64,000 nucleotides of DNA from Pseudomonas fluorescens (lineage in GTDB: Bacteria; Pseudomonadota; Gammaproteobacteria; Pseudomonadales; Pseudomonadaceae): positions 1,612,001 to 1,676,000 of the forward strand of contig NZ_CP008896.1 in NCBI RefSeq assembly GCF_000730425.1, read 5' to 3'. Positions 28,585-47,804 of the stretch are shown in pieces. The translations under genes were made by a program, and so were the position numbers. Positions within the stretch are counted from its first letter, which is position 1. Each line of letters opens with the position of its first letter. A model generated the notes under the pieces. That model saw only the letters and a program-made list of their open reading frames with translations, had not been told where the DNA came from and ran no database searches.

Positions 28585-28587
28585 ATT

Positions 28588-33857: not shown

Positions 33858-34301
33858 TCAGTTCCTCGGACTATGCCGATCAATCAGTTCACGCAAGACT
33901 TCCTTGAGGGCCTCGATTTTCTTCGCCTCGAAAGGGGCCAGAATCTCACGTTCGTGTTTCTCAGCCAGGGCAACCAGGCCGCCAACCAAACGTCGCCCCG
34001 TAGGCGTGACACGCACCAGGGTGTAGCGGCGATCATCCAGGCTGGTGGAACGCTCGACATACCGCTGTGCCTCAAGCCTGGTCAGCAGCCGGGTGACGGT
34101 AGGCTGCTTGCTTACCGTGGTCTGGGCAAGCGCGGAAATAGTCATGGCGCCATCACTGGCCAACGTAGACAGCACCCGCCACTCCAGTACCGAGAGCCCA
34201 TGCTGCTCGACGATTGCATGAAACTGGGTGGAGACCAGATACCAGGCCTGGCCGAGTAATGCGGGCAAATAGTTATCAACAAACGCCTTCGTTCTAGCCA
34301 T
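33858..34301 (-). CDS. MarR-family regulator
   Basis: A 147-residue MarR protein from the ATG at 34301 (GAGGCG 9 bases upstream); a GTG at 34391 would add 30 poorly conserved residues. The winged helix spans LSVLEWRVLSTLASDG, ALAQTTVSKQPTVTRLLTRL and SLDDRRYTLVRVTPTG. There is no cysteine, so it is not OhrR. It closes the ten-gene operon that starts at 46291 and may control it in response to an aromatic acid or acyl-CoA; the operator is not identified. Confidence 0.82.
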   Translation of the reverse strand: MARTKAFVDNYLPALLGQAWYLVSTQFHAIVEQHGLSVLEWRVLSTLASDGAMTISALAQTTVSKQPTVTRLLTRLEAQRYVERSTSLDDRRYTLVRVTPTGRRLVGGLVALAEKHEREILAPFEAKKIEALKEVLRELIDRHSPRN

Positions 34302-34394
34302 TCCAATCGTCGCCTCGTCCTCTGCCTGAACCGGCGACGATTCTATCTCCTTTGGCTCATGCGGGGGGGAATTACCCCTGCCCCGCGACACGCC

Positions 34395-35153
34395 TCAATA
34401 CCTCCCGGACAGCAACGAGCCAAAACCGGGTACGGCCGTTTTCAGCCCCAGGCGCTTGAGCATCTGATAAGTCGTGGCCACCGAGGAGGAAATCACCGGC
34501 AATCCTGTTCGATCCTCAATCGGCTGGATCGAGGGCAACGAGGGCATCTGCACACATGCCGAAGCGACAATGGCATCCACGCCGTTGGTATTGAGCTTGC
34601 GGGTGATCTCGATAGGGGCACGGGGATCTTGCCGGCCGACCTCCAGGTTGTCAGCAATTTCCAGCGAAATGCTGTCCACGACTTCAATCCCCTCGCTCTC
34701 GATGTAATCAATCACCAGTTTGGTCAGAGGCTTCATGTAGGGCGTCAGGATGGCCACCTTCTTCGCACCGATCGCTTGCAACCCAGTCACCAGTGCCCCG
34801 GCGCTGGTGACCACCGGCACCGGGCAACCGTTTTCCAGGGTGCGCTGGTAAAGGCGCTGCTCAGAAAGGCGATGATAGCCATGCCCCATGCTCATGATTG
34901 CGACCAGACATGCATAGCCGAGTACATCGACGTGGGCATCGGATAGCTCCAGCGCACAACGGTCACTATCGGCATCCATGGCCGCCAGCTCATCCCGGGT
35001 CACCTGCTTCATCCGCATCCGACTTGAGTGAAACGTAAAACGTTCAGGCTCCAACAGCTCCCGCGCGCGCAGGATCGCAGGGATCTCGGTTTCCATGGTG
35101 GTGTTGGAGCTTGGCACGATTTGGCCGATCCGGTAGTAACGGGAAGTCGTCAT
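34395..35153 (-). CDS. maleate cis-trans isomerase
   Basis: A 252-residue Asp/Glu racemase superfamily protein. The two essential cysteines known for maleate isomerases (Cys82 and Cys200 in the P. putida enzyme, from memory) are at exactly these positions here: Cys82 in GYACLVAIM and Cys200 in ASACVQMPS. The N-terminal IGQIVPSSNTTMETEIP also fits. It converts maleate to fumarate. Its ATG overlaps the stop of the nitrilase-fold gene (35150-35153). Without a maleylpyruvate isomerase nearby, it indicates that the pathway runs through free maleate. Confidence 0.88.
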   Translation of the reverse strand: MTTSRYYRIGQIVPSSNTTMETEIPAILRARELLEPERFTFHSSRMRMKQVTRDELAAMDADSDRCALELSDAHVDVLGYACLVAIMSMGHGYHRLSEQRLYQRTLENGCPVPVVTSAGALVTGLQAIGAKKVAILTPYMKPLTKLVIDYIESEGIEVVDSISLEIADNLEVGRQDPRAPIEITRKLNTNGVDAIVASACVQMPSLPSIQPIEDRTGLPVISSSVATTYQMLKRLGLKTAVPGFGSLLSGRY

Positions 35154-36163
35154 GGTTGAAACTCCTGATTGGGCTCGATTGATGGTTCGTCCACGCCGCC
35201 GATGTCCTCGAAACGGGCCGACTGTTGCGGACGGCGATTGACACGCAGATCGAAGATGTCAAAGCGGTTGTAATGACCGGCAATGTCGTGCATTTGCCGG
35301 GGCTGGATGCAGCGCGACAGATCGATCTCGGCGTAGACAATGCCTTCCTCGTCAATCAGCGGCTGGCCGATCACCCGCCCGTCCGGGCCGAGAATTGCGG
35401 AAAAGGCACTGTTGCGACGGGTGAGCAAGGCCCGCGCCTGGGGATAATCGGGTTCGAGCGCCTGGATAATCTCTTCGCTGACCGTCGAGCATGAAACGAC
35501 CGTGAACAGCTTGCCCTCGAAACAGTGCGCAGCCGCACGTACTTTGATGGCCTCAGCCATGTCGTAGTCGGACGGCGCCACGGGCAAGGAGATGTAGCTG
35601 GCGACATGCACCAGCTCCCCATCGGCGATCAAGGCAAACCGTGCCAGGGTGTTGGTGTTCTCGCCACACGCCAAGGCGCCGAGGGGCCCCACCGTGGTGC
35701 TGTGGACGCGCAGCGCCGAAGCATCGCCAGGCGCCCAGGTCAGTTTTTCGGCCCAGGTCGGTACGAGCTTACGGTGCCGGCCAAGGATCCGCCCCTCATC
35801 GGAAATAGTCACCAGGGTGTTGTAGAGCGTGCCCACACCCTGGCTGTTACGCTCGTTGACGCCTACGACAACATTGATGTGATGGCGCGCCGCAGCCTGG
35901 GCAATCTTGGCGATCTCCGGGCCGGGAATCTCGATCGCCGAGCGCATAAGCTTCTCGAACCATGGGCTGCCTTCAATCGGGCTGCCCATCCAGTTCCAAT
36001 AGGGATAACCCGCCACGAAAACCTCGGGAAACGCCACCAGTTGCGCGCCGTTGTCGGCGGCCTCCTCAATCAGGCGGATCACTTTGTCGACAGTGGCGTC
36101 GGTGTCCAGGAAAACAGGGGCTGTCTGTACCGCTGCAGCCTTGAATCGGGGTAGTTCAAGCAT
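35150..36163 (-). CDS. nitrilase-superfamily C-N hydrolase
   Basis: A 337-residue protein of the true nitrilase branch. The catalytic triad is Glu47 (VAFPEVF), Lys132 (RHRKLVPT) and Cys166 (GALACGENTN). Most characterised nitrilases have CWE at the cysteine; here it is CGE, a variant I cannot tie to a substrate. Family members hydrolyse nitriles to acid and ammonia, and some form or cleave amides. The four-base overlap with maleate isomerase suggests its product is maleate or that both act late in the pathway, for example maleamate to maleate. That role is inferred. Confidence 0.82.
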   Translation of the reverse strand: MLELPRFKAAAVQTAPVFLDTDATVDKVIRLIEEAADNGAQLVAFPEVFVAGYPYWNWMGSPIEGSPWFEKLMRSAIEIPGPEIAKIAQAAARHHINVVVGVNERNSQGVGTLYNTLVTISDEGRILGRHRKLVPTWAEKLTWAPGDASALRVHSTTVGPLGALACGENTNTLARFALIADGELVHVASYISLPVAPSDYDMAEAIKVRAAAHCFEGKLFTVVSCSTVSEEIIQALEPDYPQARALLTRRNSAFSAILGPDGRVIGQPLIDEEGIVYAEIDLSRCIQPRQMHDIAGHYNRFDIFDLRVNRRPQQSARFEDIGGVDEPSIEPNQEFQP

Positions 36164-36223
36164 GACAGTTCATCCGATTGTGCGCGAAGGAGTCGGGCCA
36201 ACCGCGCCGGGTTGGCCCGGTGC

Positions 36224-37165
36224 TTACGGCTGCTTGCCCTGGCGGGGTTCGTCGCCTACGGCGATCACGGGATTGCGTAGCGTGCCGATCTGTTCGACCC
36301 ACGCCTCCACCACATCGCCCGGCCACAACCATTCTTGCGGCGTACGCCCGGCGCCTACGCCCGCCGGTGTGCCGGTGGCAATAATGTCTCCCGGCTCCAG
36401 GGTGATACCGGCACTGATATCCGCAATCAACGTGGGGATGTTGAACAACAGATGGCGGGTATTGGAGCTCTGCTTCTCCACGCCATTGACCTTGAGGCTC
36501 AGGTTCAGGTTGTGCGGATCGCTGATCTCATCGGCGGTGACAATGACCGGCCCCAGTGGTGCATAGGTGTCTTGCCCCTTGGAGTAGATCCATTGCCCGG
36601 CGCGCCGGTTGTCACGGGCACTGATGTCGTTGAGCACGGTGTAGCCAAACACGTGGCCCAGCGCCTGGGCCTCGCCCACACACTTGGCTCGTCTGCCGAT
36701 GATCACCGCCAACTCCACCTCCCAGTCCATCTGCCGGGTAATGGCCGCGTTGTGTTCGATGGCATCGCCCGGGCCGATCACCGTGGTCGGCGGTTTGGAA
36801 AAAATCACCGGCTGCGTAGGCAACTCCTTGGACGTATCCAGCGTGCGGCTGGACTCCGCCACGTGCTCGACATAGTTCAGGCCGATGCCGAAGATGTTCT
36901 TGCGCGGACGCGGGATGGGCGCAAGCAGCTTGACATTGACCAAGGGTAAAGCCACGCCCGACGGCCACTTGCCTGCGCAGCTGTCGAGCAGCGCCGTCGT
37001 CGAGGCCACGGCATGGGGGCCCAGGTCGATAAAGTCGAGGATGTTGTCCGGCAGAGCCTGGCCCGAGTGCTGGCCCAGGTGCTGCAGATCAATCACCAGA
37101 TCGCCCACGATGGCCCCCAGTCGGGCGGCGGCACTCACATGGGCGCGATAGGTTACGAGTCGCAT
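36224..37165 (-). CDS. fumarylacetoacetate hydrolase family protein (maleyl/fumarylpyruvate hydrolase type)
   Basis: A 313-residue FAH-family protein. Metal and active-site stretches are IFGIGLNYVEHVAES, DWEVELAVIIGRRAK, FGYTVLNDISARDN and IATGTPAGVG. It sits directly behind the ring-cleavage dioxygenase gene and should hydrolyse the ring-opened diketo acid to pyruvate plus a C4 acid. As a maleate isomerase, but no glutathione-dependent isomerase, is encoded nearby, direct hydrolysis of the cis product is likely. ATG at 37165 gives the usual length; the frame is open further upstream without support. Confidence 0.87.
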   Translation of the reverse strand: MRLVTYRAHVSAAARLGAIVGDLVIDLQHLGQHSGQALPDNILDFIDLGPHAVASTTALLDSCAGKWPSGVALPLVNVKLLAPIPRPRKNIFGIGLNYVEHVAESSRTLDTSKELPTQPVIFSKPPTTVIGPGDAIEHNAAITRQMDWEVELAVIIGRRAKCVGEAQALGHVFGYTVLNDISARDNRRAGQWIYSKGQDTYAPLGPVIVTADEISDPHNLNLSLKVNGVEKQSSNTRHLLFNIPTLIADISAGITLEPGDIIATGTPAGVGAGRTPQEWLWPGDVVEAWVEQIGTLRNPVIAVGDEPRQGKQP

Positions 37166-37214
37166 GGTCGAAATTCTCCAGGTTAATACAGCAGGGTAAT
37201 GTTCCAGGCCCGGG

Positions 37215-38345
37215 CTAGGCGGGTGGCAGCACCGGTTGGTGGCCGCCGTTGTCGGCCAGCGCCTCCTCGCGGTACAGGTCCAGTTTTTCCATGACCGGAA
37301 GGTCGCTGAAACAGAACAGGCAGGCGTCGTCGCTCTGGGAGGCGTTGACATGCTCATGCCAGGCCCAGGACGGCACGCAGAAAATGTCACGCTCCTGCCA
37401 GTCAAAACGCTGGCCATTGATGATGGAGTAGCCTCTTCCCTTGGCCACCTGGTAGATGAAACTGCCGGTATGGCGATGGGCCTTGCCCACGAACCCCGGG
37501 CGCAGCAGTTGCATGCTCGCGCCGATAGTCGCCAAGACATGGCCGCCATTGACGGGGCTGGTGTAATGCATCAACGCCCCATCGAAAGGGTTGTCGTCAC
37601 GGGCTGCGGAATAGCGTCGCAGTGCCTCGTAGGTCGGTTCCCACTGGTACTTGAACAAGGGTGAATAGGGTTTGCTCCAACCGATGTTCTCCGGTCGCAG
37701 GCCGGGCGCGCTCCACAGGCTCACCAAGTCGTCGACCGGGTAGCCGATCGCCTGCTGCAAGTCCGGGTGTACGGCATAGAACCCGGCCTCCAGGGCATTG
37801 ACCAGGGGAATGTCCAGGCCGTCCTGCCAGATACACGGCAGACCGTCCTCCTCCACCCCGTGTTCATGCCAGGTCCCGTTGGGCGTCAGGACAAAATCGT
37901 TGGCGCCCAGTGTCATCTTATGGCCGTCGACAATGGTGTAGGCCCCACGCCCTTCCATGATGAAACGCAACGCCGAAGACGAATGCGCATGCGCAGAGGC
38001 CCGCTCGCCCGGGTGCATCACTTGCAACCCGGAGTACAACCAGCCGACCGCCGCCGACACTTCGGTGCGCCCAGGATTATTCAGGTAGATCACGCGGCGC
38101 CCGGCCTTTTCCGGAGTCACCAGCGTGACCGAGCGCAGCACATGCTCACGCAGGTCACGGTAGCGCCAGAGCACCGGCACAGATTCGGACTTGGGCTGCC
38201 AGGGCTCGATTTTGTTGGCCACCGTCCACAGCGCGCCGGTCTTCAACTGGTCCAGTTCACGGTAATAGGCCAGCAGTTCCGGTGTGTCTTCCACGTCGGC
38301 GCGCCCCACAATGCCTTCGCGGTATTGGTCATACGAGGTTGTCAT
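37215..38345 (-). CDS. gentisate/salicylate 1,2-dioxygenase-type ring-cleavage enzyme
   Basis: A 376-residue bicupin. Iron ligands are His119 and His121 (ASAHAHSSS) and His160 (GTWHEHG). These numbers, plus Arg83, Gly106, Arg127 and His162, are the same as those I recall for the salicylate 1,2-dioxygenase of Pseudaminobacter salicylatoxidans, which has a broader range than normal gentisate dioxygenases. The second cupin has GKAHRHTGSFIYQV. It opens the ring between the carboxyl-bearing carbon and its substituted neighbour. Gentisate is the default substrate; 5-hydroxyanthranilate or salicylate are possible here. Confidence 0.88.
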   Translation of the reverse strand: MTTSYDQYREGIVGRADVEDTPELLAYYRELDQLKTGALWTVANKIEPWQPKSESVPVLWRYRDLREHVLRSVTLVTPEKAGRRVIYLNNPGRTEVSAAVGWLYSGLQVMHPGERASAHAHSSSALRFIMEGRGAYTIVDGHKMTLGANDFVLTPNGTWHEHGVEEDGLPCIWQDGLDIPLVNALEAGFYAVHPDLQQAIGYPVDDLVSLWSAPGLRPENIGWSKPYSPLFKYQWEPTYEALRRYSAARDDNPFDGALMHYTSPVNGGHVLATIGASMQLLRPGFVGKAHRHTGSFIYQVAKGRGYSIINGQRFDWQERDIFCVPSWAWHEHVNASQSDDACLFCFSDLPVMEKLDLYREEALADNGGHQPVLPPA

Positions 38346-38385
38346 GGTCTTTCTCCTCTTTCAGGATGCCGTGGGCACTCGGCCC

Positions 38386-40710
38386 TCAGGACTTGCTTCG
38401 GGTGAAGCTACGCTCAAGCGGGTCTTTGCCCCATTGATAGGGCAGTGGCCATTCGACGTCTTGCCAGCCCAGCCTCGCGCTCTCTCTCAGGAGCCAGGCC
38501 GAATCCGCCAGATGCGAGCGCGACAAGGCACACAGGTCCGCACGCCCCGAGGCGATGATGCTGTTAATCTGGTCGGCTTCAGTGATCGCCCCCACCGCGA
38601 TGGTGGGTACATGGGCCTCGTTGCGGATCCGGTCGGCAAACGGAACCTGGAACATACGGCCATAGACCGGCTGCTGGCCCGCGACCACCTCTCCCGACGA
38701 CGCATCCACCATGTCGGCGCCGCCTTCACACAAACGCCGGGCGATCTCTACGGCGTCATCCACCTGGGTGCCGCCCGGGGCCCAATCCGTAGCCGAGATG
38801 CGTACCGAGATCGGCAAATGGTCCGGCCAGGCCTGGCGTATGGCTGCCAGTACCTGGAGCGGGAAACGCAGGCGATTGGCCAATGAGCCGCCGTACTCGT
38901 CGCTGCGCTGATTGGTCAACGGGGAGATGAAGCTTGAGAGCAGGAACCCGTGCCCGGCCTGCAGTTCAAGCCAGTCAAAACCGGCCTCCGCGGCGCGGCG
39001 TGCGGCATCGGCGAACTGCTTGCAGGTGCGCGCCAGGTCATCGTGGGTCGCTTCGTGCGGCACCTGCGAGATCCCCTCCAGGTACGGCAACGGGCTTGCG
39101 CTGATCAACGGCCAGTTGCCATCAGCCTGCGGATAGTCGGCCTTTTCCCAGCCCAACTGTGTAGAGCCGCGGCGTCCGGCGTGATTGAGCTGCACGCCGA
39201 TTTGCGCCCCACTTTCGGCATGCACAAAGTCGGTGATTTTTTTCCACGCCACGACCTGCTCTGCATTCCACAAGCCGGGATCGCCTGCCGTGATACGGGC
39301 CTGCGGGGAAATCGCCGTGGCTTCCGCCAAGACCAACCCGGCGCCACCCAGGGCCTGGCCACCGAGATGGACCAGGTGGAAGTTCCCCGCAAGGCCATCC
39401 TGGCTGGAGTACAGCAACGTGGGTGAGACCACCACCCGATTCCTCAACGTTACACCGCGCACCGTGTAGGGCGTCAGAAACGGCGGACGCGGCCTCTCCC
39501 CTGGGGCCATCGGCACGCCCGCCCGCTGCGCCAGCCACCGCTCATAGCCTTCCAGCCACTGAGGGTCGCGCAAGCGCAGATTCTCGTGGGAAATACGTTG
39601 CGATCGGGTCAACACCGAGTAGGCAAACTGCTCCGGTTCTAAATTGGCATAACGCGCCACGTTCTCGAACCATTCAGTGGAGTTGCGCGCCGCGTTCTGG
39701 ATCTTCAACACCTCGATGCCACGCACCTTCTCGTAATGCGCCAGGCGTTCACTCAGGTCTCCCCCCGCCTTGAGGGTGTTGCACAACTCGATAGCATCCT
39801 CCAGTGCCAGCTTGGTGCCCGAACCGATCGAGAAATGCGCGGTATGGGCCGCATCGCCCATCAGGACTACCGGTACGTCGCCGCCTTGCGGGCCATTGGG
39901 CTGGGTCCAATGCACCCATTTGCCACAGATCACCCGTGGGAAGCGGATCCAGATTGCCGCGCCACGCAGGTGAGAGGCATTTGAAAGCAGCGGTTCGCCG
40001 TCAAGCCAAGGGGCGAATAGCTTTTCACAATAAGCGATCCCCTCCTCCTGGGACATTTTGTCGATGCCCGCCGCCTGCCAGGTGGCATCGGTCGTTTCGA
40101 CGATGAACGTAGAAAGGCCCTCCTCGAACTGGTAAGCGTGGGCCTGGAACCAGCCATGCTCGGTCGGCACAAACAGAAAAGTGAAGGCCTCGAAGACCTT
40201 GTGCGTCCCCAGCCAAACGAAGCGGCAATGGCGTTGGTCGATGTCTGGCTGGTAGGTCTGCGCATAGCGGGTGCGCACCGGGCTGTTGATACCATCGGAG
40301 GCGATCACCAGGTCGGCGTTGTACTGGCGCGCAATCGCCTGATCGTCTGTGACCTGGGTTTCAAAGACCAGTTCGACCCCCACCTCCTCACAGCGCGCCT
40401 GCAGGATATTGAGCAGCTTCTTGCGGCCAATGCCGATAAAGCCATGACCGGCGCTGCGTACCAGGCGGTCCTTGAAATGGATGTCGATATCGTCCCAACG
40501 GCTGAACGCATCGGCGATGGTCTGCGCGGACACCGGGTCAGCTTCGCGCAGGTTGTCCAAGGTCGCATCGGAGAAGACCACCCCCCAACCGAAGGTGTCG
40601 TAAGGTCGATTGCGCTCGACCACGACAATCTCATTGGCCGGGTTGTGCAACTTCATCAGCAAACCGAAGTACAGGCCGGCGGGACCGCCGCCGATGCAGG
40701 CAATTTTCAC
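38386..40710 (-). CDS. fused FAD monooxygenase/old yellow enzyme, salicylyl-CoA 5-hydroxylase or 2-aminobenzoyl-CoA monooxygenase type
   Basis: A 774-residue fusion. Residues 1 to about 380 are a flavin monooxygenase (GGGPAG at residues 8-13, TFGWGVVFSDATLDNLREAD, GDAAHTAHFSIGSGTKLALE). From about residue 395 an old-yellow-enzyme barrel follows (LRNRVVVSPT, GVQLNHAGRRGS, AGFDWLELQAGHGFLLSSF). The two known relatives are salicylyl-CoA 5-hydroxylase (SdgC) and the Azoarcus 2-aminobenzoyl-CoA monooxygenase/reductase; both act at C5 of an ortho-substituted benzoyl-CoA. It overlaps the thioesterase gene by four bases. No beta-oxidation genes are near, so a simple 5-hydroxylation followed by thioester hydrolysis is more likely than the Azoarcus outcome. 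Confidence 0.85.
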   Translation of the reverse strand: MKIACIGGGPAGLYFGLLMKLHNPANEIVVVERNRPYDTFGWGVVFSDATLDNLREADPVSAQTIADAFSRWDDIDIHFKDRLVRSAGHGFIGIGRKKLLNILQARCEEVGVELVFETQVTDDQAIARQYNADLVIASDGINSPVRTRYAQTYQPDIDQRHCRFVWLGTHKVFEAFTFLFVPTEHGWFQAHAYQFEEGLSTFIVETTDATWQAAGIDKMSQEEGIAYCEKLFAPWLDGEPLLSNASHLRGAAIWIRFPRVICGKWVHWTQPNGPQGGDVPVVLMGDAAHTAHFSIGSGTKLALEDAIELCNTLKAGGDLSERLAHYEKVRGIEVLKIQNAARNSTEWFENVARYANLEPEQFAYSVLTRSQRISHENLRLRDPQWLEGYERWLAQRAGVPMAPGERPRPPFLTPYTVRGVTLRNRVVVSPTLLYSSQDGLAGNFHLVHLGGQALGGAGLVLAEATAISPQARITAGDPGLWNAEQVVAWKKITDFVHAESGAQIGVQLNHAGRRGSTQLGWEKADYPQADGNWPLISASPLPYLEGISQVPHEATHDDLARTCKQFADAARRAAEAGFDWLELQAGHGFLLSSFISPLTNQRSDEYGGSLANRLRFPLQVLAAIRQAWPDHLPISVRISATDWAPGGTQVDDAVEIARRLCEGGADMVDASSGEVVAGQQPVYGRMFQVPFADRIRNEAHVPTIAVGAITEADQINSIIASGRADLCALSRSHLADSAWLLRESARLGWQDVEWPLPYQWGKDPLERSFTRSKS

Positions 40711-41162
40711 ATTGCGCTCCTTTCACTATTGTCTTTATGGGAGGTAGAGGACGCCGTCAGCGCCAGCCGCAACAGGCCCGGCAACTCGATGGCCTGATGA
40801 CTGTCCAGGGAGGTCGAGACCAGCACCTGCGTGACCTTCATGCGCACCTGCCCCTCAAGGTCGGTACACCCCAGCGCCAGGGTCAGCGACTTGCCGCCAA
40901 GCCTGATCACTTCCAGGCTCAGCAAGACGTCGTCGCCCATGCGGCTGATGGCCTGGAAGTCAGCTTCAAGGTGTACGGTCGGCAAGCCGAAACGCAGCTT
41001 GCCGATGTAACCGGCGAAGCCCACCTCGGGCAGCAGCTCGTCGATCCAGGACTCCAGCAGGTTGTTGAACATCACGAAATATTGCGGGTAGAACACGATG
41101 CCCGCCGGGTCGCACTCGGCGAAGCGGATACGGTGTTCACGGACGAATTTGCTTGGATTCAT
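40707..41162 (-). CDS. acyl-CoA thioesterase, 4-hydroxybenzoyl-CoA thioesterase family
   Basis: A 151-residue hot-dog-fold protein with the family active-site pattern FAECDPAGIVFYPQYF (Asp18). It should release the free hydroxylated aromatic acid and CoA from the product of the fused hydroxylase, with which it overlaps by four bases. It is 6 bases behind the IorB-like gene. The specific acyl group is inferred from context. Confidence 0.87.
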   Translation of the reverse strand: MNPSKFVREHRIRFAECDPAGIVFYPQYFVMFNNLLESWIDELLPEVGFAGYIGKLRFGLPTVHLEADFQAISRMGDDVLLSLEVIRLGGKSLTLALGCTDLEGQVRMKVTQVLVSTSLDSHQAIELPGLLRLALTASSTSHKDNSERSAM

Positions 41163-41168
41163 AAGAAA

Positions 41169-42677
41169 CTATCCTTGGAAAGATAAGGCATGGCGTTGCA
41201 AGCATTCGCGCAACTGGTGGCCGTGTTCATCGGCCAATGCTGCGTCGCGCAGCTCACGCAACGTCGTCGGCGCCAGGTAACGGGAGTGCCGGTCCACCAC
41301 GGCCATCAACGTTTCGTAGTTCTTCAGGCCGCGGGCGTGGGTGTCGCTGTAGCCCTTGACCAGACGCTGGCAGTGCGCAGCTTCCAGGGCCAACGCAGGA
41401 TCCATCACAGCCAGTGTTCGCAGGCGTTGCAGCCAGGCGTCAATGCGGGCGTTTTCCTGGCTGTAGCGCAGCGTCACACGGCGCCAGCGGCGCCAGCGCG
41501 ACAGCCCGTAGAGCAGGAGGAAGCCGCTCAGGGAGCTGGTCTTGATCGTGCGCCCCTGCTGGGTGAAACGGGCCACCAGGCGATGGGTCCGATGGGGTTT
41601 GGCCAGCCAGCGGCCCAGGCCCGCCGGTAAGGTCTCGCAGATTTCTTCGATACGCGGGTGCATATACTCTTCAATCGCCAGGACCTGGTCGGCTTTGGAG
41701 CGCACCTCGGTACGCACCCGCTCGAAGCGGCTGCCACGGGTCTTGAGGTCAGCCACCCGGATGGTGTCCTCGTAGGACATCCACAGCGCCAGGTAGCGGG
41801 CCGTTTCCCGCAGCAACGCCACGTCCCCGCCGCCGGGGGCGGCGGCCTGCGTTTCGAGCCGGTCCAGGTACAGGCGGGCGTAGTCCGGGTCCTGGTAATC
41901 GATGAGGCGGCGCACACCTTCGACGGCGATCTGCACCACTCCGCTCGGTAGCCCCCATGCCCGGTCGGCCAGCCCGGCAACCACCGGGTGCCGCGGCTGC
42001 GATGCCTCAGGGCGCGGCGCTGCAACCTGCGGTTCTTGTGCTTCGTCCTGGGTCATGCGCGCCCGGGTATAACCCGCCTCAAAAGCCTGCAGGCTGGGTT
42101 TGACGCCAACCCCCCCGCGCTCAATCGTGGCCTGGAACTGTGCACGGTTGAACGGCAGTACCCCTGTGCCGCTGAGGGCGCCGAACAACACGGCGCTGAT
42201 GACGCTGCCCGTGCGCTCGGCCATCTGCTCCATATTGAAGCTGACAAAACTTTTGGCGGCGCGGCTCGCCTGCTGCAACAGCGCCTCGCTGTCGACCCGG
42301 CCATCGCCCATCGCCGACTTCTCGGCAATCGAATAGACCCGGTGGGTCGAGGTCACCAGGGTGGTCCGGTCACGGGTAACAAAACCGCGTTGCACCGCTC
42401 GCCCCGCCTCCATCAGTTCCGAGGCCAGCACGATATCGACATCCCCCGGCAACGGCGCCTGCGCGAGCACCGGCACCCTGGCTTGCGGGGCATCGGCACC
42501 GGGGAACAGTTCAACGTAGTAAATCGTCGCGCCGGTACGCTGGGCGACCCCCGGAACAGAGGTGGTCTGCGCGAAATAGCCGTTTGCCTCTCCCAGGTCG
42601 ACAATCCAGTCGGCGAGTACCCCTCCGCCCTCGCCGCCCATGGCGAGAATGGCAATCTTGATCGGCTCACTGGGCAT
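41169..42677 (-). CDS. 2-oxoacid:ferredoxin oxidoreductase, IorB-like subunit with C-terminal DUF6537-type extension
   Basis: A 502-residue protein. The first 190 residues are the IorB/gamma-type domain (IAILAMGGEGGGVLADWIVD, TTSVPGVAQRTGATIYYVEL). The remaining 300 residues are a helical, Arg-rich extension found in long IorB proteins. With the IorA-like protein it should oxidatively decarboxylate an aryl 2-oxoacid to the acyl-CoA. ATG at 42677 has GGAG 7 bases upstream. The MFS gene lies between the two subunit genes. The substrate is not necessarily indolepyruvate; a phenylglyoxylate such as isatinate would give anthraniloyl-CoA. Confidence 0.85.
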   Translation of the reverse strand: MPSEPIKIAILAMGGEGGGVLADWIVDLGEANGYFAQTTSVPGVAQRTGATIYYVELFPGADAPQARVPVLAQAPLPGDVDIVLASELMEAGRAVQRGFVTRDRTTLVTSTHRVYSIAEKSAMGDGRVDSEALLQQASRAAKSFVSFNMEQMAERTGSVISAVLFGALSGTGVLPFNRAQFQATIERGGVGVKPSLQAFEAGYTRARMTQDEAQEPQVAAPRPEASQPRHPVVAGLADRAWGLPSGVVQIAVEGVRRLIDYQDPDYARLYLDRLETQAAAPGGGDVALLRETARYLALWMSYEDTIRVADLKTRGSRFERVRTEVRSKADQVLAIEEYMHPRIEEICETLPAGLGRWLAKPHRTHRLVARFTQQGRTIKTSSLSGFLLLYGLSRWRRWRRVTLRYSQENARIDAWLQRLRTLAVMDPALALEAAHCQRLVKGYSDTHARGLKNYETLMAVVDRHSRYLAPTTLRELRDAALADEHGHQLRECLQRHALSFQG

Positions 42678-42815
42678 AAACAGACTCCACAACAGGGTCG
42701 ACGCACATACCGGCGCCCATGACAGATTGATAATTGCCAGCACTGGACCACAGGCGCACAGGCACGCGCCGTCCCCCAAGGCTGGGCTCACAGAAAAAAA
42801 TCGAGGATTGATTCA

Positions 42816-44108
42816 TCATGAACACCTCGCCGGGCGTGTGGGCAGCAGGAACACCGCCGCAGCGGCCACCAGGCCTACCAGCGCAAACGCAATGAAGTTC
42901 CAGGCCTGGCCAATCCCGCTTCCGGCCACGTAGCCACCCAACAGCGGCCCGCTCATCGCGCCAAATCGCGCAAAACCCAAGCCCCAGCCGGTCGCGGCCG
43001 CACGCACCCGCGGCGGGTAGTAGTCGGCCAGGTAGCCCGTCAGAATCAGCGAGGCGCCAATGCTCCCCAGGCCCGCAATGGCAACCAGCGCATAGTTCAC
43101 ACCCAGGGTATTGCGCGCAGCCAGGGCAAAGACGGCCAGCGCCCCCACCAGGTAGAACACCCCGACCACCGCCTGCACACCGAAGTGATCTGCCGCACGC
43201 CCCAGAAACAGGCCCCCCAGCGCCGAGGCCAGGCTGAACATGATCAACAGCCCCAGGCTGGAGCCCAGGTCGTAACCACTCTGGCGCATGATCGAAGGCA
43301 ACCAGGTGTTGAGGCCGTAGATCAGCAACAGGCCGCAGAACAACGCCACCCAGAAGCAGGCCGTTGCCCGCAGGTGTTGGCGCGCAAACACCTCGGCCAG
43401 TACCTGTCGCCACCCCGGTTGTTGACTGTCTGGCTGCGGCGCCCGCCCGGGCACCACCATCTGCAAGCGCGTGGCGAGCCTGGCGGCATCCTCTGCACGC
43501 CCTTGCCCGACCAGGAACTCAAGCGACTCAGGCAGCATGCGCGCCATCGGCCACAGCAACAGCACCGGCAGCACGCCGACGGCAATCACCCCACGCCACC
43601 CCTGGGTAGGCAGCAACCAGATCGCAGCGGCGGCGGCGCACAAAATGCCCAGCGAATAGCCCGAATACATCAGCCCGTAATTGAAGCTGCGGCGCTCGGC
43701 TCGCGAATACTCGACGGTCAGGGCCGCGGCAACCGGAATCACACCGCCCAGGCCCAATCCACCGACAAACCGAAAGAAGCCGAACCAGGCCGGCGTGGGC
43801 GCCCAGGCAGCGCCCGCCATCATCAGCGAGAACACCAGTACGCACAGCAACAGCATGCGGCGGCGCCCAAGCAGCTCACTGAGCATCCCCACCAGCAGCG
43901 CGCCGAAAAACATGCCAATCATCGCGTAGCTGCCGAGCATCCCCAGTTCCCACGGCGTCAGGTTCCAGGCCTTGTCCTGCGCCAGTGCCGGCAGGATCGC
44001 GCCCATCACGCCCACGTCGTACCCCTCAAACAAGATGGCCAGCCAGCACACAAGCAGGACTCTGGCCGTGACCCTGGAAGGTGGGCCGGGCTCGGTCACC
44101 CGGCTCAT
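42816..44108 (-). CDS. MFS transporter, aromatic acid:H+ symporter (PcaK/BenK-like)
   Basis: A 430-residue protein with 12 predicted helices. The AAHS signature is clear: FEGYDVGVMGAILPAL in helix 1 with its Asp, and GRRRMLLLCVLVFSLMMAG after the DE-type loop. PcaK-like carriers take up benzoates, hydroxybenzoates and related acids. Its start overlaps the IorA-like stop by four bases, and 138 bases separate it from the IorB-like gene. The insertion between the two enzyme subunits is unusual. Confidence 0.88.
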   Translation of the reverse strand: MSRVTEPGPPSRVTARVLLVCWLAILFEGYDVGVMGAILPALAQDKAWNLTPWELGMLGSYAMIGMFFGALLVGMLSELLGRRRMLLLCVLVFSLMMAGAAWAPTPAWFGFFRFVGGLGLGGVIPVAAALTVEYSRAERRSFNYGLMYSGYSLGILCAAAAAIWLLPTQGWRGVIAVGVLPVLLLWPMARMLPESLEFLVGQGRAEDAARLATRLQMVVPGRAPQPDSQQPGWRQVLAEVFARQHLRATACFWVALFCGLLLIYGLNTWLPSIMRQSGYDLGSSLGLLIMFSLASALGGLFLGRAADHFGVQAVVGVFYLVGALAVFALAARNTLGVNYALVAIAGLGSIGASLILTGYLADYYPPRVRAAATGWGLGFARFGAMSGPLLGGYVAGSGIGQAWNFIAFALVGLVAAAAVFLLPTRPARCS

Positions 44109-46291
44109 AGGGCATACCGGGATCGACGGCGGGCATCGGCGTCCTGCAACCAGCCAATGACGGTGATCCGCACACGCTGGCTGAATCGGTCCCACCACGT
44201 CGGGTTACTGACAATCTGCGCCCGATAAAACGATGGGCAGAGCACCGCGGCATGGGCCACCTCGCCACAGTTGCCACACCCCACGCAGCTCTCCATCACC
44301 ATGGCCACCGGGTCTTGGCGCAACGGGTCCGGGTTATCGCGGATAGACAAGGAAGGGCAGCCGGACAGGCGGATGCAGGAGTGATCGCCAGTGCAGGTAT
44401 CCGGGTCGATACCGAAGCGCTCGCGCACCACCCGTTGGCCATCGGCCAGGGCCTTGCGCACGACCTTCTTCTCTCGACGCTGCAGATTGAGCATGCATTC
44501 GCTCTGCGCGATGAGCACCTTTGGCCCCGCCTCCTGGGTGGTCAAGGCTTCGCGCAGGGTGGATACCATGGCTTTGAGATCATAGGTGCGCTTGATGGTA
44601 CGCACCCATTCGACCCCCACCCCCTTGACCGCTTTCTCGATTTCATGGCCGGTGCTGCGCGAGGCGTTGAGTGCTCGCGACGACAGCACGTCCTGGCCGC
44701 CGGTAGCCGAGGCGTAGTTGTTGTCGATGATGATCGTCAGGTTGTCACTGCGATTGAACACCGCATTGGCGACTCCGCTGGTCAGGCCGTTGTGCCAGAA
44801 CCCCCCATCCCCCATCAGCGAGATGGCACGCTTGGTCGCAGGTGCAGAGCCGGGGGCCACGCTGAAAGCCGCCGAACTGGCGCCGCCCAGGCCGTACCCC
44901 ATGGTCGTGCTGCCGAGGTTGAAGGGCGGCAGGATCGAAAACAGATGGCAGCCGATGTCGGCACTGATGTGATGCTTGCCCAGCTCACGCTCGACCAACT
45001 TGATGGCCGTGAAAATCGGGCGCTCCGGGCAGCCAGTGCACAGGCCTGGCGGCCGCGCATGAACGATCTGCTCCAGGGATTGCACGCCCGCCCCCTCGGC
45101 GGGCGGCGCTTCGACCGGCAACATCACAATCGGGATGCCAAGCGGCGGCTGCGGGACTTGCACGAGACCATAGCGTTCCAGAAAGGCCCGCACGCCCGCG
45201 AGCACGGTCGCGGTGTTGTAATCCCCGGCCAGGGGCAGCACATCCTTGCCATGCAAGGCGGTCTGCGACCCCAGCTGGCGCAGGATCGCCGAAACGTTTT
45301 GCTCCACAAAATTGGGCTGGCCTTCTTCCAGCAGCAAGATGGCACGCTTGCCCTTGCAGAAGCGTTCAAACTCCTCGTCGACCAGCGGGTAGGCCACATT
45401 CATGACGTACAAGGGGATGTGCGAAGCCCCGTAGACATCGGACAGCCCCAGCTTCTGCAACGCACGGATCAGCGTGTTGTAGTTCCCCCCCTGCAAGGCG
45501 ATGCCGACATCTGCCGCGCCTTCGCTGAAGAACTCGTTGAGCTGGCGTTCCTGGATGAAACGGATCGCGGCCGGCCAGCGCTGCTGGATTTTCTCCCGCT
45601 CGTGCAGGAAGCTCGCGGGTGGCAGGACGATACGGTTGATGTCCCGCGCAGGATTTTCCAGGGCATCCTTGACCGTAAACGCCGGCGGGCGGTTATCGGA
45701 GGCCACAAACTGACCATGCAGGTGGCAAGAGCGAATGCGCATCTGCAACATCACCGGGGTATTGCTGGCCTCTGACAGATCGAAGCCATCCTTGACCGCC
45801 TGCACGATGCTTGGCAGGTTCGGCCGTGGGTCGAGCAACCACATTTGCGACTTCATCGCGAACGCGTGGCTGCGCTCCTGCATGATCGAGGAGCCCTCGC
45901 CATAATCCTCACCCACGATGACCAACGCACCGCCCGTGACCCCGCCCGACGCCAGGTTGGCCAGCGCATCGGAGGCTACGTTGGTCCCCACCGTCGCCTT
46001 GAAGGTGATCGCGCCGCGCAATGGATAGTTGACTGACGCCGCCAGCATCGCCGCCGCAGTGGCCTCGCTGGCACTGTTTTCAAAGCGGATGCCATATTCC
46101 CCCAGAATGTCTTGGGCATCCGAGAGCACGTCCATCAAGTGCGAGATGGGCGACCCCTGGTATCCCCCGACATACGCCACACCCGACTCCAGTAGCGCCT
46201 TGGTGACCGCCAGGATGCCTTCGCCGCTGAACATCTCACCCGCGCCGGCACGCAGCTTCTTCACTTCCTGGACAAAGGATCGCTCGGCCAT
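44105..46291 (-). CDS. 2-oxoacid:ferredoxin oxidoreductase, IorA-like subunit
   Basis: A 728-residue protein of the indolepyruvate:ferredoxin oxidoreductase alpha type. It has the N-terminal pyrimidine-binding part (VGGYQGSPISHLMDVL), a TPP motif (MGDGGFWHNGLTSG with DNNYASATGG) and a C-terminal ferredoxin domain with CTGDHSCIRLSGCPSL and CVGCGNCGEVAHAAVLCPSF. The enzyme converts an aryl 2-oxoacid, CoA and oxidised ferredoxin to aryl-CoA and CO2. It is the first gene of the ten-gene operon, so this reaction is likely the entry step. Oxygen tolerance in an aerobic pseudomonad is notable. Confidence 0.88.
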   Translation of the reverse strand: MAERSFVQEVKKLRAGAGEMFSGEGILAVTKALLESGVAYVGGYQGSPISHLMDVLSDAQDILGEYGIRFENSASEATAAAMLAASVNYPLRGAITFKATVGTNVASDALANLASGGVTGGALVIVGEDYGEGSSIMQERSHAFAMKSQMWLLDPRPNLPSIVQAVKDGFDLSEASNTPVMLQMRIRSCHLHGQFVASDNRPPAFTVKDALENPARDINRIVLPPASFLHEREKIQQRWPAAIRFIQERQLNEFFSEGAADVGIALQGGNYNTLIRALQKLGLSDVYGASHIPLYVMNVAYPLVDEEFERFCKGKRAILLLEEGQPNFVEQNVSAILRQLGSQTALHGKDVLPLAGDYNTATVLAGVRAFLERYGLVQVPQPPLGIPIVMLPVEAPPAEGAGVQSLEQIVHARPPGLCTGCPERPIFTAIKLVERELGKHHISADIGCHLFSILPPFNLGSTTMGYGLGGASSAAFSVAPGSAPATKRAISLMGDGGFWHNGLTSGVANAVFNRSDNLTIIIDNNYASATGGQDVLSSRALNASRSTGHEIEKAVKGVGVEWVRTIKRTYDLKAMVSTLREALTTQEAGPKVLIAQSECMLNLQRREKKVVRKALADGQRVVRERFGIDPDTCTGDHSCIRLSGCPSLSIRDNPDPLRQDPVAMVMESCVGCGNCGEVAHAAVLCPSFYRAQIVSNPTWWDRFSQRVRITVIGWLQDADARRRSRYAL

Positions 46292-46775
46292 GTTGCTTAT
46301 CTCTCAGATCAAGTGAACAAAACTGCCTATGGCCTCTACCTTCATCTGAGGCGCAGGTTGCGTCAATACATGAATAATCATGCAAATGATCTTGCTGCAA
46401 GATCTGGATAGAGGTGGCAGTACGAGGATAAACACAGGCCAGATCCAAGGCCCCATGCCCGTAAGCAACACTGGGAGCTGACGTGTTTTCGCCTTGAATG
46501 ACGCTGACGATAGCCTTTGTTTAAAGGGTATATGGGCCATCATGACGAAGCGTTCGTGCTTGCTGAACGCACCGTTTATCAACCATGCCCATGATGCATT
46601 GCATTTTCCGGCAGGCCGTGCGATTAATAATTTATCACCGAAAAACAATATGAATAATCATATTAAATATCGGAAAACCGCGTCGCGCATGCGCCTCCGG
46701 CAAGCGCAGTCGAGGTTGTTTTTCATAACAATAATCAGGCTGATAGCCGGCCAAGCTCCGAGAGGGGTAGCACCC
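46292..46775. promoter_or_regulatory. divergent promoter gap with three inverted repeats
   Basis: No convincing gene lies here. The AT-rich stretch contains CATGA-ATAA-TCATG (46369-46382), GATCTTG-CTG-CAAGATC (46388-46404) and AATATGA-ATAA-TCATATT (46647-46664). The first and third share the core ATGAATAATCAT and lie near the IorA-like and AraC gene starts respectively. They are candidate sites for the AraC protein at 46776 or the MarR protein at 33858. Confidence 0.5.
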
Positions 46776-47804
46776 GTGCAGAACATTCCGACCTCCACCT
46801 ATTCGCCCGTGCGTGGGCAGGCCGCCATTTTTTCGACTGAACGAGTCCTGAATGAGCCGGAACGCCTGCTTTTTGCGTCCGCCGACCTGGAGCAAGTGCG
46901 CTCCATGGTCGGCCAGGTCATCGCCAATCATCACTTGAAGCAGACCCATGGAACCGAGCGCCTGGACGCGCGCATGCATTACCTGCCCCTGGGCGACATC
47001 TCGCTGAGCCGCCTGCGCTACGGTGCCCATGTGCAAATCGAGCGTGGTCCCCTGGAGCATTGTTTTCTGGTGCAAATGCCTGTCCAGGGTTGCGCCGTGA
47101 TTGAAAGCGGTGGCCAGCGTATCGAGTCGTCACTGGAGCTCGCTTCGGTCCTGAGCCCGGGAGACGAAGCGAAAATGCAGTGGAGTGGCGATAGCGACCA
47201 GATCATGCTGAGGATCTCGCGCTCATTGGTCGAACGCACATTGGTTGGGTACCTGGGCCATCCATTGGAACACCCCCTGCGTTTCGACCTCGGGTTCCGC
47301 TGGCAGGATTCAGGCCCCTGGCGGTGCCTGCTCTCCTACCTGCTCGATTGTGCAACCCAGTATCCAGCCCTTGCCCAACACAAGCTGGTCACGGCACAGA
47401 TCGAGCAACTGACCGCCTCAATCCTGCTGACGACCCATAAACACAATCACAGTGAAAACGCCCCGGCTCGGCGCAGCACCATACTCCCCCGGCATGTCCG
47501 CCGTGCCCAGGACTACCTGCGTGCGCACGCCCATGAGCCGATCAGTGCCGAGCAACTGGCACAGGCTGCCGGGGTCAGCTTGCGCAGCCTATACAGTGGC
47601 TTCAGGGATTTTCTGGGCATCAGCCCGATGCAGCATCTGCGCGAACTGCGCATGGAACGTGTCCGTAGCGAGCTGATCGGCGGCGAGGTCACCAACATCG
47701 CAGGCGTCGCGTTGCGCTGGGGGTTCACGCACATGGGCCGGTTCAGCAATGACTACAAACTGCGCTACCGCGAAACACCCAGCCAGACCCTACGTCGACA
47801 TTGA
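46776..47804 (+). CDS. AraC-family regulator
   Basis: A 342-residue regulator if started at the GTG at 46776 (GAGAGGGG 8 bases upstream); the frame is open from 46494, but those extra residues are not protein-like. The N-terminal ligand domain resembles the AraC_binding_2 type (LPLGDISLSRLRYGAHVQIE). The C-terminal double helix-turn-helix spans SAEQLAQAAGVSLRSLYSGF and NIAGVALRWGFTHMGRFSND. Divergent from the IorA operon and 52 bases before the VOC gene, it probably activates one or both. Confidence 0.82.
   Translation: MQNIPTSTYSPVRGQAAIFSTERVLNEPERLLFASADLEQVRSMVGQVIANHHLKQTHGTERLDARMHYLPLGDISLSRLRYGAHVQIERGPLEHCFLVQMPVQGCAVIESGGQRIESSLELASVLSPGDEAKMQWSGDSDQIMLRISRSLVERTLVGYLGHPLEHPLRFDLGFRWQDSGPWRCLLSYLLDCATQYPALAQHKLVTAQIEQLTASILLTTHKHNHSENAPARRSTILPRHVRRAQDYLRAHAHEPISAEQLAQAAGVSLRSLYSGFRDFLGISPMQHLRELRMERVRSELIGGEVTNIAGVALRWGFTHMGRFSNDYKLRYRETPSQTLRRH

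Follow-up and report, generated by a model that had tools for sequence, protein, structure and literature searches.

A tightly packed run of ten co-directional genes (33858-46291, minus strand) in a 64,000-nucleotide stretch of the Pseudomonas fluorescens genome, hereafter the window, raises the question of which aromatic compound it serves to degrade and by what chemistry. Isatin arises in the degradation of both indole and the plant hormone auxin. The published schemes consulted here for indole and auxin breakdown via isatin extend as far as anthranilate. According to a 2018 review, the genes of a gentisate-type route from indole were not known (PMC6221969), and an IorA/IorB pair marks iad-like auxin loci according to the sections used of another paper (PMC9613470). 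The cluster in the window represents a full candidate gene set for the conversion of isatin to fumarate. We consider, with a probability of roughly 0.7, that it is an isatin-catabolic cluster in which the amino-bearing ring is cleaved directly.

Gene content and surroundings of the cluster

All ten open reading frames lack internal stops, and the gene kinds named in the first-pass annotation agreed with profile and family searches. In the direction of transcription, the cluster starts with an IorA-like TPP/4Fe-4S protein (44105-46291; TPP_enzyme_C, PF02775, 1.5e-14), the predicted alpha subunit of an isatinate (2-aminophenylglyoxylate) oxidoreductase, which has a GDG-X-NN TPP motif at residue 494 and scores 268.6 bits against TIGR03336 (indolepyruvate ferredoxin oxidoreductase alpha), below the curated cut-off of 650.9. 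It is followed by an MFS transporter of the aromatic acid/H+ symport type (42816-44108; TIGR00895, 4.6e-95, under the cut-off), an accessory uptake function present in 4 of 22 dioxygenase-linked loci, and by an IorB-like subunit of a 2-oxoacid oxidoreductase (41169-42677; POR and DUF6537), which exceeds the cut-off of the indolepyruvate oxidoreductase beta family NF006179 (720.9 bits against 348). The next genes encode a hot-dog thioesterase of the 4HBT type (40707-41162; PF13279, 4.1e-9), a fused FAD monooxygenase/old-yellow-enzyme protein (38386-40710), a bicupin gentisate-type dioxygenase (37215-38345; PDB 3bu7, 1.4e-167), an FAH-family hydrolase (36224-37165; FAA hydrolase, PF01557, 4.1e-71), a nitrilase-fold CN hydrolase (35150-36163; PF00795, 9e-43), an Asp/Glu-racemase-type protein homologous to solved maleate cis-trans isomerases (34395-35153; PDB 4fq7, 1.8e-101), and a MarR-family regulator (33858-34391; PF12802, 4.9e-13) that scores 78.6 bits against the HpaR model, under its cut-off of 121.2. 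Three four-base overlaps were confirmed, namely IorA/MFS (with the MFS ATG at 44108), thioesterase/hydroxylase, and nitrilase/isomerase. The likely starts are 44108 for the MFS gene, 42677 for iorB and 37165 for the FAH gene, and therefore the large overlap of the longest dioxygenase and FAH reading frames is probably not real. The genes had also been described as standing in pathway order, which does not hold strictly, as the MFS gene splits iorA from iorB and the thioesterase gene precedes that of the hydroxylase.

Two further genes probably belong to the same functional set, an isatin hydrolase gene 4 kb upstream (50111-50902, minus strand) and an adjoining gene for a CrtI/amine-oxidase-like flavoprotein (48497-50107, minus strand; PF01593, 1.1e-13), which also adjoins isatin hydrolase in many relatives and is possibly a dioxindole- or indoxyl-to-isatin oxidase. 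The predicted isatin hydrolase is strongly homologous to solved enzymes (PDB 5nmp, 1.4e-148; 5nna/5nnb, about 3e-98; 4j0n, 1.7e-76) and carries, as HTGTHFD at residue 74, the HxGTHxD sequence that we take to be its metal motif. Upstream of it on the same strand are an NCS1-type permease gene (51041-52453; PF02133, 22.7 bits, just under the 23.5 cut-off), possibly for isatin or lactam uptake, whose homologues adjoin isatin hydrolase in two relatives (L002 and L198) and share its stretch in a third (L044), and a possibly accessory outer-membrane porin gene (52494-53564; NF040479, 3.1e-7, under the cut-off). The plus strand between the cluster and the flavoprotein gene encodes an AndR-like regulator of the AraC family (46494-47804 as the longest reading frame; NF041686, 192.6 bits, under the 350 cut-off) and a glyoxalase-superfamily protein (47749-48372; PF00903, 9.4e-11). 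The regulator gene is divergent from iorA, and 13 of the 22 linked loci have a homologue arranged in the same way. A search of the P. fluorescens source genome gave no indole-monooxygenase match, and its best match to an IadD-like protein, queried for the IadDE Rieske oxygenase of iad loci, was only 32% identical; therefore, the pathway is likely to be entered at isatin or at a near precursor.

A candidate route from isatin to fumarate

In the proposed route, isatin hydrolase would open the isatin ring to isatinate, a 2-oxoacid that IorAB would convert to anthraniloyl-CoA by oxidative decarboxylation. The fused flavoprotein, a predicted anthraniloyl-CoA 5-hydroxylase, would then form 5-hydroxyanthraniloyl-CoA, with the ring remaining aromatic if the old-yellow-enzyme half, the part responsible for ring reduction in the classical 2-aminobenzoyl-CoA monooxygenase/reductase, is silenced, and the thioesterase would release 5-hydroxyanthranilate. 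Cleavage between C1 and C2 by the bicupin enzyme, acting as a 5-hydroxyanthranilate 1,2-dioxygenase, would yield maleamoylpyruvate, from which the FAH protein would release pyruvate by hydrolysis, leaving maleamate. Deamidation of maleamate by the nitrilase-fold enzyme would give maleate, which the isomerase would convert to fumarate. The first step is backed by the strong homology of the isatin hydrolase, and the substrates of the later steps are suggested by protein family, gene company and residue patterns. The first-pass annotation had proposed the reactions from isatinate through anthraniloyl-CoA and 5-hydroxyanthranilate to fumarate. Such a route predicts an isatin hydrolase, and the reading gains support from the finding of one in the window and in relatives: it lies within the stretch in 12 of the 22 dioxygenase-linked hydroxylase loci, and of nine genomes searched for the remaining ten loci, eight contain it and one (that of L017) gave no match.

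Among the 80 best hydroxylase loci, 22 show the same order of IorB, thioesterase, hydroxylase, dioxygenase and FAH; they come from Pseudomonas, Burkholderiales, Providencia and Xenorhabdus, and the order is therefore not due to chance. The thioesterase lies between IorB and the hydroxylase in all 22. Against the proposed route, the maleate isomerase is in the stretch of only 16; it is missing from L028 and four Alcaligenaceae loci, and the stretch of L013 ends before the possible site. The IorA-like protein occurs with IorB and isatin hydrolase in both iad-like and indole-type clusters of relatives, and iad-like auxin genes lie directly downstream in four of them (L042, L045, L054, L070). A further point against the reading is that seven sampled iad-like loci had no dioxygenase of this kind in the stretches examined. 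No described operon with the full gene set was found in the open-licence literature, and the complete isatin-consuming set is apparently undescribed so far; it would be a variant of CoA-dependent and gentisate-type routes.

The earlier proposal of an amino rather than a hydroxy ring substrate was strengthened by the company that the last four enzymes keep. A second copy of this quartet in the source genome lies beside genes for tryptophan dioxygenase and kynureninase, and quartets are also found near kynureninase in another Pseudomonas and in an actinomycete (L196 and the actinomycete L137 have matches to both tryptophan-pathway enzymes near the quartet). Because kynureninase makes aminobenzoates, the compound that is ring-cleaved is likely to be 5-hydroxyanthranilate. 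In addition, a close nitrilase-fold gene (at least 60% identity) adjoined the dioxygenase and FAH genes wherever this was checked, in six of six sampled genome places and eight of eight plasmid places, and the assignment of its product as a maleamate amidohydrolase is predicted from this gene company. In other bacteria, related ring-opening genes occur in clusters for the degradation of auxin and of tryptophan.

The fused hydroxylase and alternative readings

The hydroxylase belongs to the family NF006101, whose cut-off it exceeds (1278.7 bits against 1078). At residue 584, in its reductase half, it has Gln, as do all 30 dioxygenase-linked rows of the alignment, while 57 of 59 unlinked rows have His, the two exceptions coming from genomes with the dioxygenase in another stretch. 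Three aligned solved old-yellow-enzyme relatives have His at this position, the first of the HxxH pair of such relatives, which would be expected in the reductase half of a classical 2-aminobenzoyl-CoA monooxygenase/reductase. All seven positions that separate the linked from the unlinked sets lie in the reductase half. Since a conserved reductase His is replaced by Gln, the hydroxylase probably stops at an aromatic product. Gln584 would, however, also fit a salicylyl-CoA hydroxylase halting at the aromatic product.

Several other explanations of the cluster were weighed. With the upper route unchanged, 5-hydroxyanthranilate could be deaminated to gentisate, which would pass through maleylpyruvate to maleate, with the nitrilase-fold enzyme unrelated; this corresponds to the older "anthranilate to gentisate" scheme. 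A gentisate intermediate was reported for Alcaligenes In3 and Nocardia opaca in two reviews (PMC6221969, PMC4539516), the homologous Ruegeria pomeroyi structure 3BU7 is filed as a gentisate 1,2-dioxygenase, and, among 13 sampled places of dioxygenases at least 60% identical, a nitrilase-fold gene was absent from the stretch in four and only distantly related (35-41%) in three, with none in three further dioxygenase stretches (L123, L124, L125). However, family scans of the ten proteins found no aminohydrolase of the expected families, and the close nitrilase-fold gene accompanies the dioxygenase and FAH genes, mostly with the isomerase, from Proteobacteria to an actinomycete. Furthermore, the dioxygenases group in a clade of their own, separate from enzymes of about 40% identity and with altered letters in the metal-site motif, and the enzyme in the window falls short of the curated cut-offs both for gentisate 1,2-dioxygenase (TIGR02272, 314.8 against 442.1 bits) and for 5-aminosalicylate 1,2-dioxygenase MabB (NF049978, 256.8 against 650). 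We therefore regard deamination to gentisate as unlikely, and it is still less likely that the nitrilase-fold gene encodes a true nitrilase, for instance for indole-3-acetonitrile, that was added to an aromatic-acid operon. Its closest solved relatives are indeed nitrilases and cyanide dihydratases, but it lies below the cut-off for the Nit6803 nitrilase family (TIGR04048, 239.2 against 502.6 bits), the catalytic Cys stands in CGENTN in all 41 close relatives while six of 12 more distant matches have CWE and six CGENTN, and the gene is tied to FAH and dioxygenase in three loci (L136, L154, L196) in which iad-like and indole-monooxygenase queries were unmatched.

The amino chemistry itself might be a misreading of a hydroxy series from salicyloyl formate through salicylyl-CoA and gentisyl-CoA to gentisate, as would fit the NCBIfam name of the hydroxylase, "bifunctional salicylyl-CoA 5-hydroxylase/oxidoreductase". 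This is very unlikely, since the cluster is accompanied by an isatin hydrolase gene and by oxidation genes of the indole or auxin type, and since the quartet adjoins kynureninase. In the six annotated plasmid stretches that contain the quartet, the only product name to mention salicylate or gentisate is that of the hydroxylase itself, in L130, and the monooxygenase half shares 69-81% identity with its counterparts in 58 unlinked loci, mostly with a benzoate-CoA-ligase-family gene. This conserved half and the close homology to 2-aminobenzoyl-CoA monooxygenase/reductases could instead mean that the hydroxylase is such a classical enzyme, yielding a non-aromatic CoA ester, and that the quartet serves another substrate. 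Gln584 in every linked row and the thioesterase adjoining the hydroxylase make this improbable to a similar degree. Among the 56 hydroxylase loci that lack both dioxygenase and isatin hydrolase, a gene of the benzoate-CoA-ligase family is present in 46 and one for an acyl-CoA dehydrogenase in 50, whereas in the 22 linked loci the classical acyl-CoA dehydrogenase was unmatched and the ligase was matched only at 26-27%.

Relation to known pathways

The proposed isatin route shares parts with several known pathways. As in the gentisate pathway (gentisate 1,2-dioxygenase, maleylpyruvate hydrolase), a bicupin dioxygenase is paired with an FAH hydrolase and the ring is cut adjacent to the carboxyl, but the predicted substrate carries an amino group, the dioxygenase belongs to a separate clade below the curated cut-off, and an amidase step is added. 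The lower nicotinate pathway converts maleamate to maleate and then to fumarate, the same last two reactions, with a maleate isomerase homologous to 4fq7; its maleamate amidase is an isochorismatase-like enzyme, whereas a nitrilase fold is predicted here. The 2-aminobenzoyl-CoA monooxygenase/reductase route of Azoarcus evansii likewise uses a CoA thioester and the same fused flavoprotein family. In that route, a ligase supplies the acyl-CoA and ring reduction takes place as well (PMC4539516), while in the cluster the acyl-CoA is predicted to come from IorAB, the reductase His is replaced, and direct ring cleavage follows. For an indole degrader, genetic evidence of the 2-aminobenzoyl-CoA route is cited in the sections used of PMC6221969.

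The iad auxin loci of Variovorax, Alcaligenes, Bradyrhizobium and Ruegeria share with the locus a gene like that of isatin hydrolase and a pair of the IorAB type (iadA/iadB), a likeness drawn at the level of protein families; the names IadA and IadB are absent from the main text of PMC12633357. Their reported end product is anthranilic acid, whereas the cluster in the window carries a ring-cleavage set. The cluster offers a role for the IorA/IorB pair of iad-like auxin loci; if the proposed route is true, the job of IadAB would be to convert isatinate to anthraniloyl-CoA. In some relatives, genes for an SDR, a StyA-like monooxygenase and a flavin reductase lie beside isatin hydrolase, as in the iif and ipo-dho systems for indole degradation, the monooxygenase being the one unmatched in the source genome. 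The iif scheme is drawn to anthranilate, with isatin suggested to be a dead end, in the portions used of PMC6221969 and PMC12538310.

On balance, it seems probable that the quartet is a portable 5-hydroxyanthranilate module, which opens the ring directly before ammonia release and serves at least three upper pathways (indole/isatin, iad-like auxin, and tryptophan or 5-hydroxytryptophan via kynureninase), and that, in clusters where its substrate is provided through an aminobenzoyl-CoA hydroxylase, the reductase half of that fused enzyme was silenced by the His to Gln change, probably more than once. If so, the module would account for the old "anthranilate to gentisate" route of Alcaligenes that degrade indole, for which the genes have been missing. 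The cluster also points to a substrate that is likely to be new for a "gentisate dioxygenase" of solved structure, and PDB 3BU7 would then bear the name of a surrogate substrate. Finally, the fused hydroxylase is a case of an enzyme that, in the setting of a different downstream pathway, has seemingly lost one of two reactions. On a tree of the monooxygenase half, the Gln/His label requires three changes, with at least two of them forced.

The gene cluster and the nearby isatin hydrolase

The ten open reading frames that the first-pass annotation had described are present on the minus strand at 33858-46291 and are free of internal stops, and Pfam and NCBIfam scans returned the same gene families as had been named. 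The three four-base overlaps are also real (IorA/MFS, with the MFS start ATG at 44108, thioesterase/hydroxylase, and nitrilase/isomerase), and the likely starts of IorB (42677) and FAH (37165) both lie downstream of the longest-ORF starts. IorA carries a TPP motif, the dioxygenase HxH...H in each of its two cupins, the nitrilase-fold protein CGEN, and the hydroxylase FAD motifs; a search of PDB sequences returned no relatives of IorA at E 0.001. A scan of 46250-46900 found no promoter-like sites against 0.7 expected and one terminator-like site against 0.7 expected.

An isatin hydrolase gene, absent from the first-pass annotation, is located at 50111-50902 on the same strand as the cluster. 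Its product carries the HxGTHxD motif and matches the solved isatin hydrolases (1.4e-148 for 5nmp, and about 3e-98 and 1.7e-76 for the others), which are described in PMC6117287. The gene is adjoined by one for a CrtI/amine-oxidase-like flavoprotein (48497-50107), the same block contains an NCS1-like permease (51041-52453), and between this block and the cluster lie the genes of an AraC regulator, divergent and AndR-like, and of a glyoxalase-family protein. The product of isatin hydrolase, isatinate, is the starting compound of the isatinate-to-fumarate scheme proposed previously, and that scheme is supported and also widened: the hydrolase would supply isatinate, which would then pass through anthraniloyl-CoA, 5-hydroxyanthranilate, maleamoylpyruvate, maleamate and maleate to fumarate. 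What the sequences show directly is which genes are present and how they are conserved, the homology of the isatin hydrolase, the distribution of Gln584 and the quartets linked to kynureninase; each substrate after isatin is inferred, and we put the probability of the isatin-to-fumarate route at roughly 70%. A second AndR-like AraC regulator, under the cut-off, was seen at 53563-54876 near porin and permease genes.

Hydroxylase loci and residue 584

Genes in relatives were placed by tblastn, as naive ORF calling picked antisense ORFs in GC-rich DNA; pieces covering less than 45% of the query (35% in some later placements) were dropped, and identical proteins were counted once. When gene neighbourhoods were compared across genomes, as had been suggested, 22 of the best 80 hydroxylase loci in the genome collection had a cluster-type dioxygenase in the same stretch. 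These linked loci range over Pseudomonas, Burkholderiales, Providencia and Xenorhabdus. IorB, thioesterase and FAH were each found in all 22, the nitrilase-fold gene in 21 (the stretch of locus L013 stops after FAH), IorA in 21 (the copy in L002 is split over three frames), MarR in 18, and maleate isomerase in 16, being absent in L013, L028 and the Alcaligenaceae loci L042, L045, L054 and L070. In the stretches examined of these four Alcaligenaceae loci, the remaining lower-pathway genes are present. Isatin hydrolase was found in the examined stretch of 12 of the 22, and a search of the genomes of the other ten, except that of L005, found it in eight of nine, the genome of L017 being the one in which it was not found.

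Among the 58 unlinked loci, L044 and L061 are linked to isatin hydrolase. The remaining 56 frequently carry a benzoate-CoA-ligase-family gene (46 loci), which is read as 2-aminobenzoate-CoA ligase, and an acyl-CoA dehydrogenase gene (50 loci), and none has a same-stretch match above 45% identity to IorA, the dioxygenase, FAH, the nitrilase-fold protein or isatin hydrolase. The division into 22 and 56 loci is the split expected between the new route and the classical 2-aminobenzoyl-CoA route. When the whole genomes of nine of the 56 were searched, isatin hydrolase and the cluster-type dioxygenase were found elsewhere in four and both were absent in another four; the ninth, a metagenome assembly (L009), contained a dioxygenase fragment, and isatin hydrolase was not found in it.

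The two kinds of loci also differ in the old-yellow-enzyme (reductase) half of the hydroxylase. In a first set, limited to frames above 600 residues, residue 584 was Gln in all 23 linked sequences, the window included, and His in 56 of 58 unlinked ones. Seven positions separated the two groups at the chosen thresholds; every one falls within the reductase half, and the monooxygenase half has none. In an alignment with three solved old-yellow-enzyme relatives, residue 584 corresponds to the leading His of their HxxH pair, a His that we take to bind the substrate in such enzymes. With all sequences above 700 residues, each of the 30 linked rows has Gln (L204, of 55% identity, among them), and 57 of the 59 unlinked ones have His. 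Only L044 and L061 depart from this; their genomes carry the dioxygenase, nitrilase-fold, FAH, isomerase and IorAB genes in the separate stretches L127 and L128. Furthermore, Cupriavidus sp. IDO has both types, the His-type in a ligase cluster (L055) and the Gln-type in a complete cluster (L122). On a tree of the monooxygenase half (all 32 Gln rows and 29 of the 57 His rows, with L204 on a long branch), the Gln/His label requires three changes, gains or losses, at least two of which are forced by well-supported branches. We read Gln584 as a silencing of ring reduction, probably on more than one occasion, so that the thioesterase and the dioxygenase would receive a product that is still aromatic.

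The ring-cleavage genes and their substrate

The source genome contains, outside the window (G000:C1:720000-739900, locus L154), a second quartet of dioxygenase (78%), FAH (72%), nitrilase-fold (72%) and isomerase (77%) genes. They are preceded by genes for an alpha/beta hydrolase, tryptophan 2,3-dioxygenase (306.8 bits, under the cut-off of 390.7) and kynureninase (284.3 bits, cut-off 246.4) and followed by an amino acid permease gene whose product is closest to AroP; a divergent Lrp-type regulator is also there. By tblastn, another Pseudomonas (L196) has the hydrolase, tryptophan dioxygenase, kynureninase, a weak permease match, nitrilase-fold, dioxygenase and FAH genes, differently arranged and with the isomerase close by, and the actinomycete Embleya (L137) has tryptophan dioxygenase (42%) and kynureninase (39%) matches upstream of the quartet. 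The three dioxygenases occupy separate places in the dioxygenase tree; two branch deepest within the clade, and that of L137 is on a long branch. Kynureninase yields anthranilate or a hydroxyanthranilate, and the compound whose ring is cleaved is probably an aminobenzoate. Since no hydroxylase match was seen at L154, 5-hydroxytryptophan is a plausible entry compound there.

The dioxygenase itself scores under the curated cut-offs of both gentisate 1,2-dioxygenase and 5-aminosalicylate 1,2-dioxygenase. In a tree of all 52 close and 12 of 27 distant rows, a long, fully supported branch parts it and the close rows from dioxygenases of about 40% identity, and the Gln of an HxHxQ motif is present in 25 of the 27 distant rows and in none of the close ones. 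A variant of the route, in which 5-hydroxyanthranilate is first deaminated to gentisate and then cleaved, draws its main evidence from the Ruegeria pomeroyi protein 3bu7, the cupin of such a cluster, which is filed as a gentisate dioxygenase and whose activity on gentisate has reportedly been shown. PMC6221969 and PMC4539516 also name gentisate among the intermediates when Alcaligenes In3 and Nocardia opaca degrade indole or anthranilate, and PMC6221969 states that the genes of that route were not known. A wholly hydroxylated series, from salicylyl-CoA to gentisate, was rejected as the main reading on the grounds of the isatin hydrolase and the kynureninase-linked quartets.

The first-pass annotation had assigned the nitrilase-fold protein to deamidation of maleamate; action on a nitrile is held unlikely from the curated family scan, the company of dioxygenase and FAH, and the CGENTN sequence at the catalytic Cys. 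This sequence occurs in all 41 close relatives, and 12 distant ones comprise six with CWE and six with CGENTN. In 398 sampled genomes of the phylum, dioxygenase and FAH are adjacent at all six places of at least 60% identity, and the dioxygenase was near none of seven examined (four with 1.5-kb flanks only) of the eight places below 50%. In a plasmid collection, eight of nine places of at least 60% were examined (H6 was left out, being from the same organism as H5), and dioxygenase, FAH and isomerase are all adjacent in each; none of them adjoins the next place, at 54%. Viewed from the dioxygenase, 13 places of at least 60% identity were sampled, the next best being 43%; six have a close nitrilase-fold gene, three a distant one (35-41%, CWEN) and four none, two of these last being iad-like with IorAB and one having a CoA-ligase match. 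Likewise, in Achromobacter (L123, L124) and Pusillimonas (L125) the dioxygenase is present and the nitrilase-fold gene, IorAB and hydroxylase are missing in about 20 kb. At such places one has to suppose a different amidase, a different sequence of steps or a different substrate. FAH accompanies the dioxygenase in L123 and L124.

The cluster-type dioxygenase was found in 3 of 249 sampled genomes of the genus, the source genome included, which makes it an uncommon, accessory trait; in a class-level sample of 369 genomes, it was found in the source genome only.

Upper pathways and the source of isatin

Two candidate upper pathways feed the cluster in relatives, one of an indole-oxidation type and one of an iad-like auxin type. 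In Paraburkholderia (L006), Trinickia (L007), Glaciimonas (L044) and Pseudoduganella (L061), SDR, StyA-like monooxygenase and flavin reductase genes are located beside isatin hydrolase, and in short stretches from Paracidovorax, Xenorhabdus and Providencia (L082-L086, L088) the monooxygenase, reductase, isatin hydrolase and CrtI-like genes are contiguous. This set resembles the iif/ipo-dho indole-oxidation genes described in PMC12538310, by gene kind and not by sequence. In L042, L045, L054 and L070, the order is IorA, IorB, thioesterase, hydroxylase, dioxygenase, FAH, nitrilase and isatin hydrolase, followed 3' by iadC-, iadD-, iadE-, iadF- and thiolase-like genes, labels given by gene-kind comparison with PMC9613470 and PMC12633357.

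In 300 sampled genomes of the order of genome G248, seven loci have an iadD-like gene of at least 55% identity. With matches of at least 30% identity placed, IorA and/or IorB is adjacent in six of the seven, isatin hydrolase is present in four, a His-type hydroxylase lies further on in one, and the cluster-type dioxygenase was found in none of the stretches examined. IorAB is therefore associated with isatin hydrolase, and there seem to be at least two continuations from them, of which the dioxygenase module is one. The iad-like loci L199 and L200 contain IorAB, iad-like, dioxygenase and FAH genes, and in place of the missing nitrilase-fold gene an acyl-CoA dehydrogenase gene and short ORFs that may encode RidA-like and flavin-reductase-like proteins. 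On a Shinella plasmid (L134, 6099-13775), an HsaA-like flavin monooxygenase gene, an ORF of the carboxylesterase family and a flavin reductase gene come before the quartet, and these may represent one more upper pathway leading to the module.

For the source strain, oxidation of indole was set aside, no StyA-like monooxygenase match having been found in its genome, an empty search that by itself shows nothing, and oxidation of indole-3-acetate was set aside with a best match to the iadD-like protein of 32%. Taken together, these results make it likely that the entry compound is isatin, isatinate or a close precursor, supplied externally. No description of the route, which could exist in a subscription paper, was found among the titles and passages retrieved from the open-licence literature, including passages of PMC8383072, PMC11630574, PMC7796270 and PMC9613470, and no paper there mentions both isatin and salicylyl-CoA 5-hydroxylase.

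Elsewhere in the window, 19716-25886 probably encodes another aromatic pathway. It contains genes for an intradiol (catechol-type) dioxygenase, an alcohol-dehydrogenase-like protein and an aldehyde dehydrogenase, each scoring below the curated cut-off, as well as two genes whose products had no strong family match and a putative LysR-like gene; an ABC transporter of the branched-chain type is encoded next to it (25974-30661, scanned in part). At 130-930 there is a gene for a 4-hydroxy-2-oxoheptanedioate aldolase of the HpaI type, whose score exceeds the curated cut-off.
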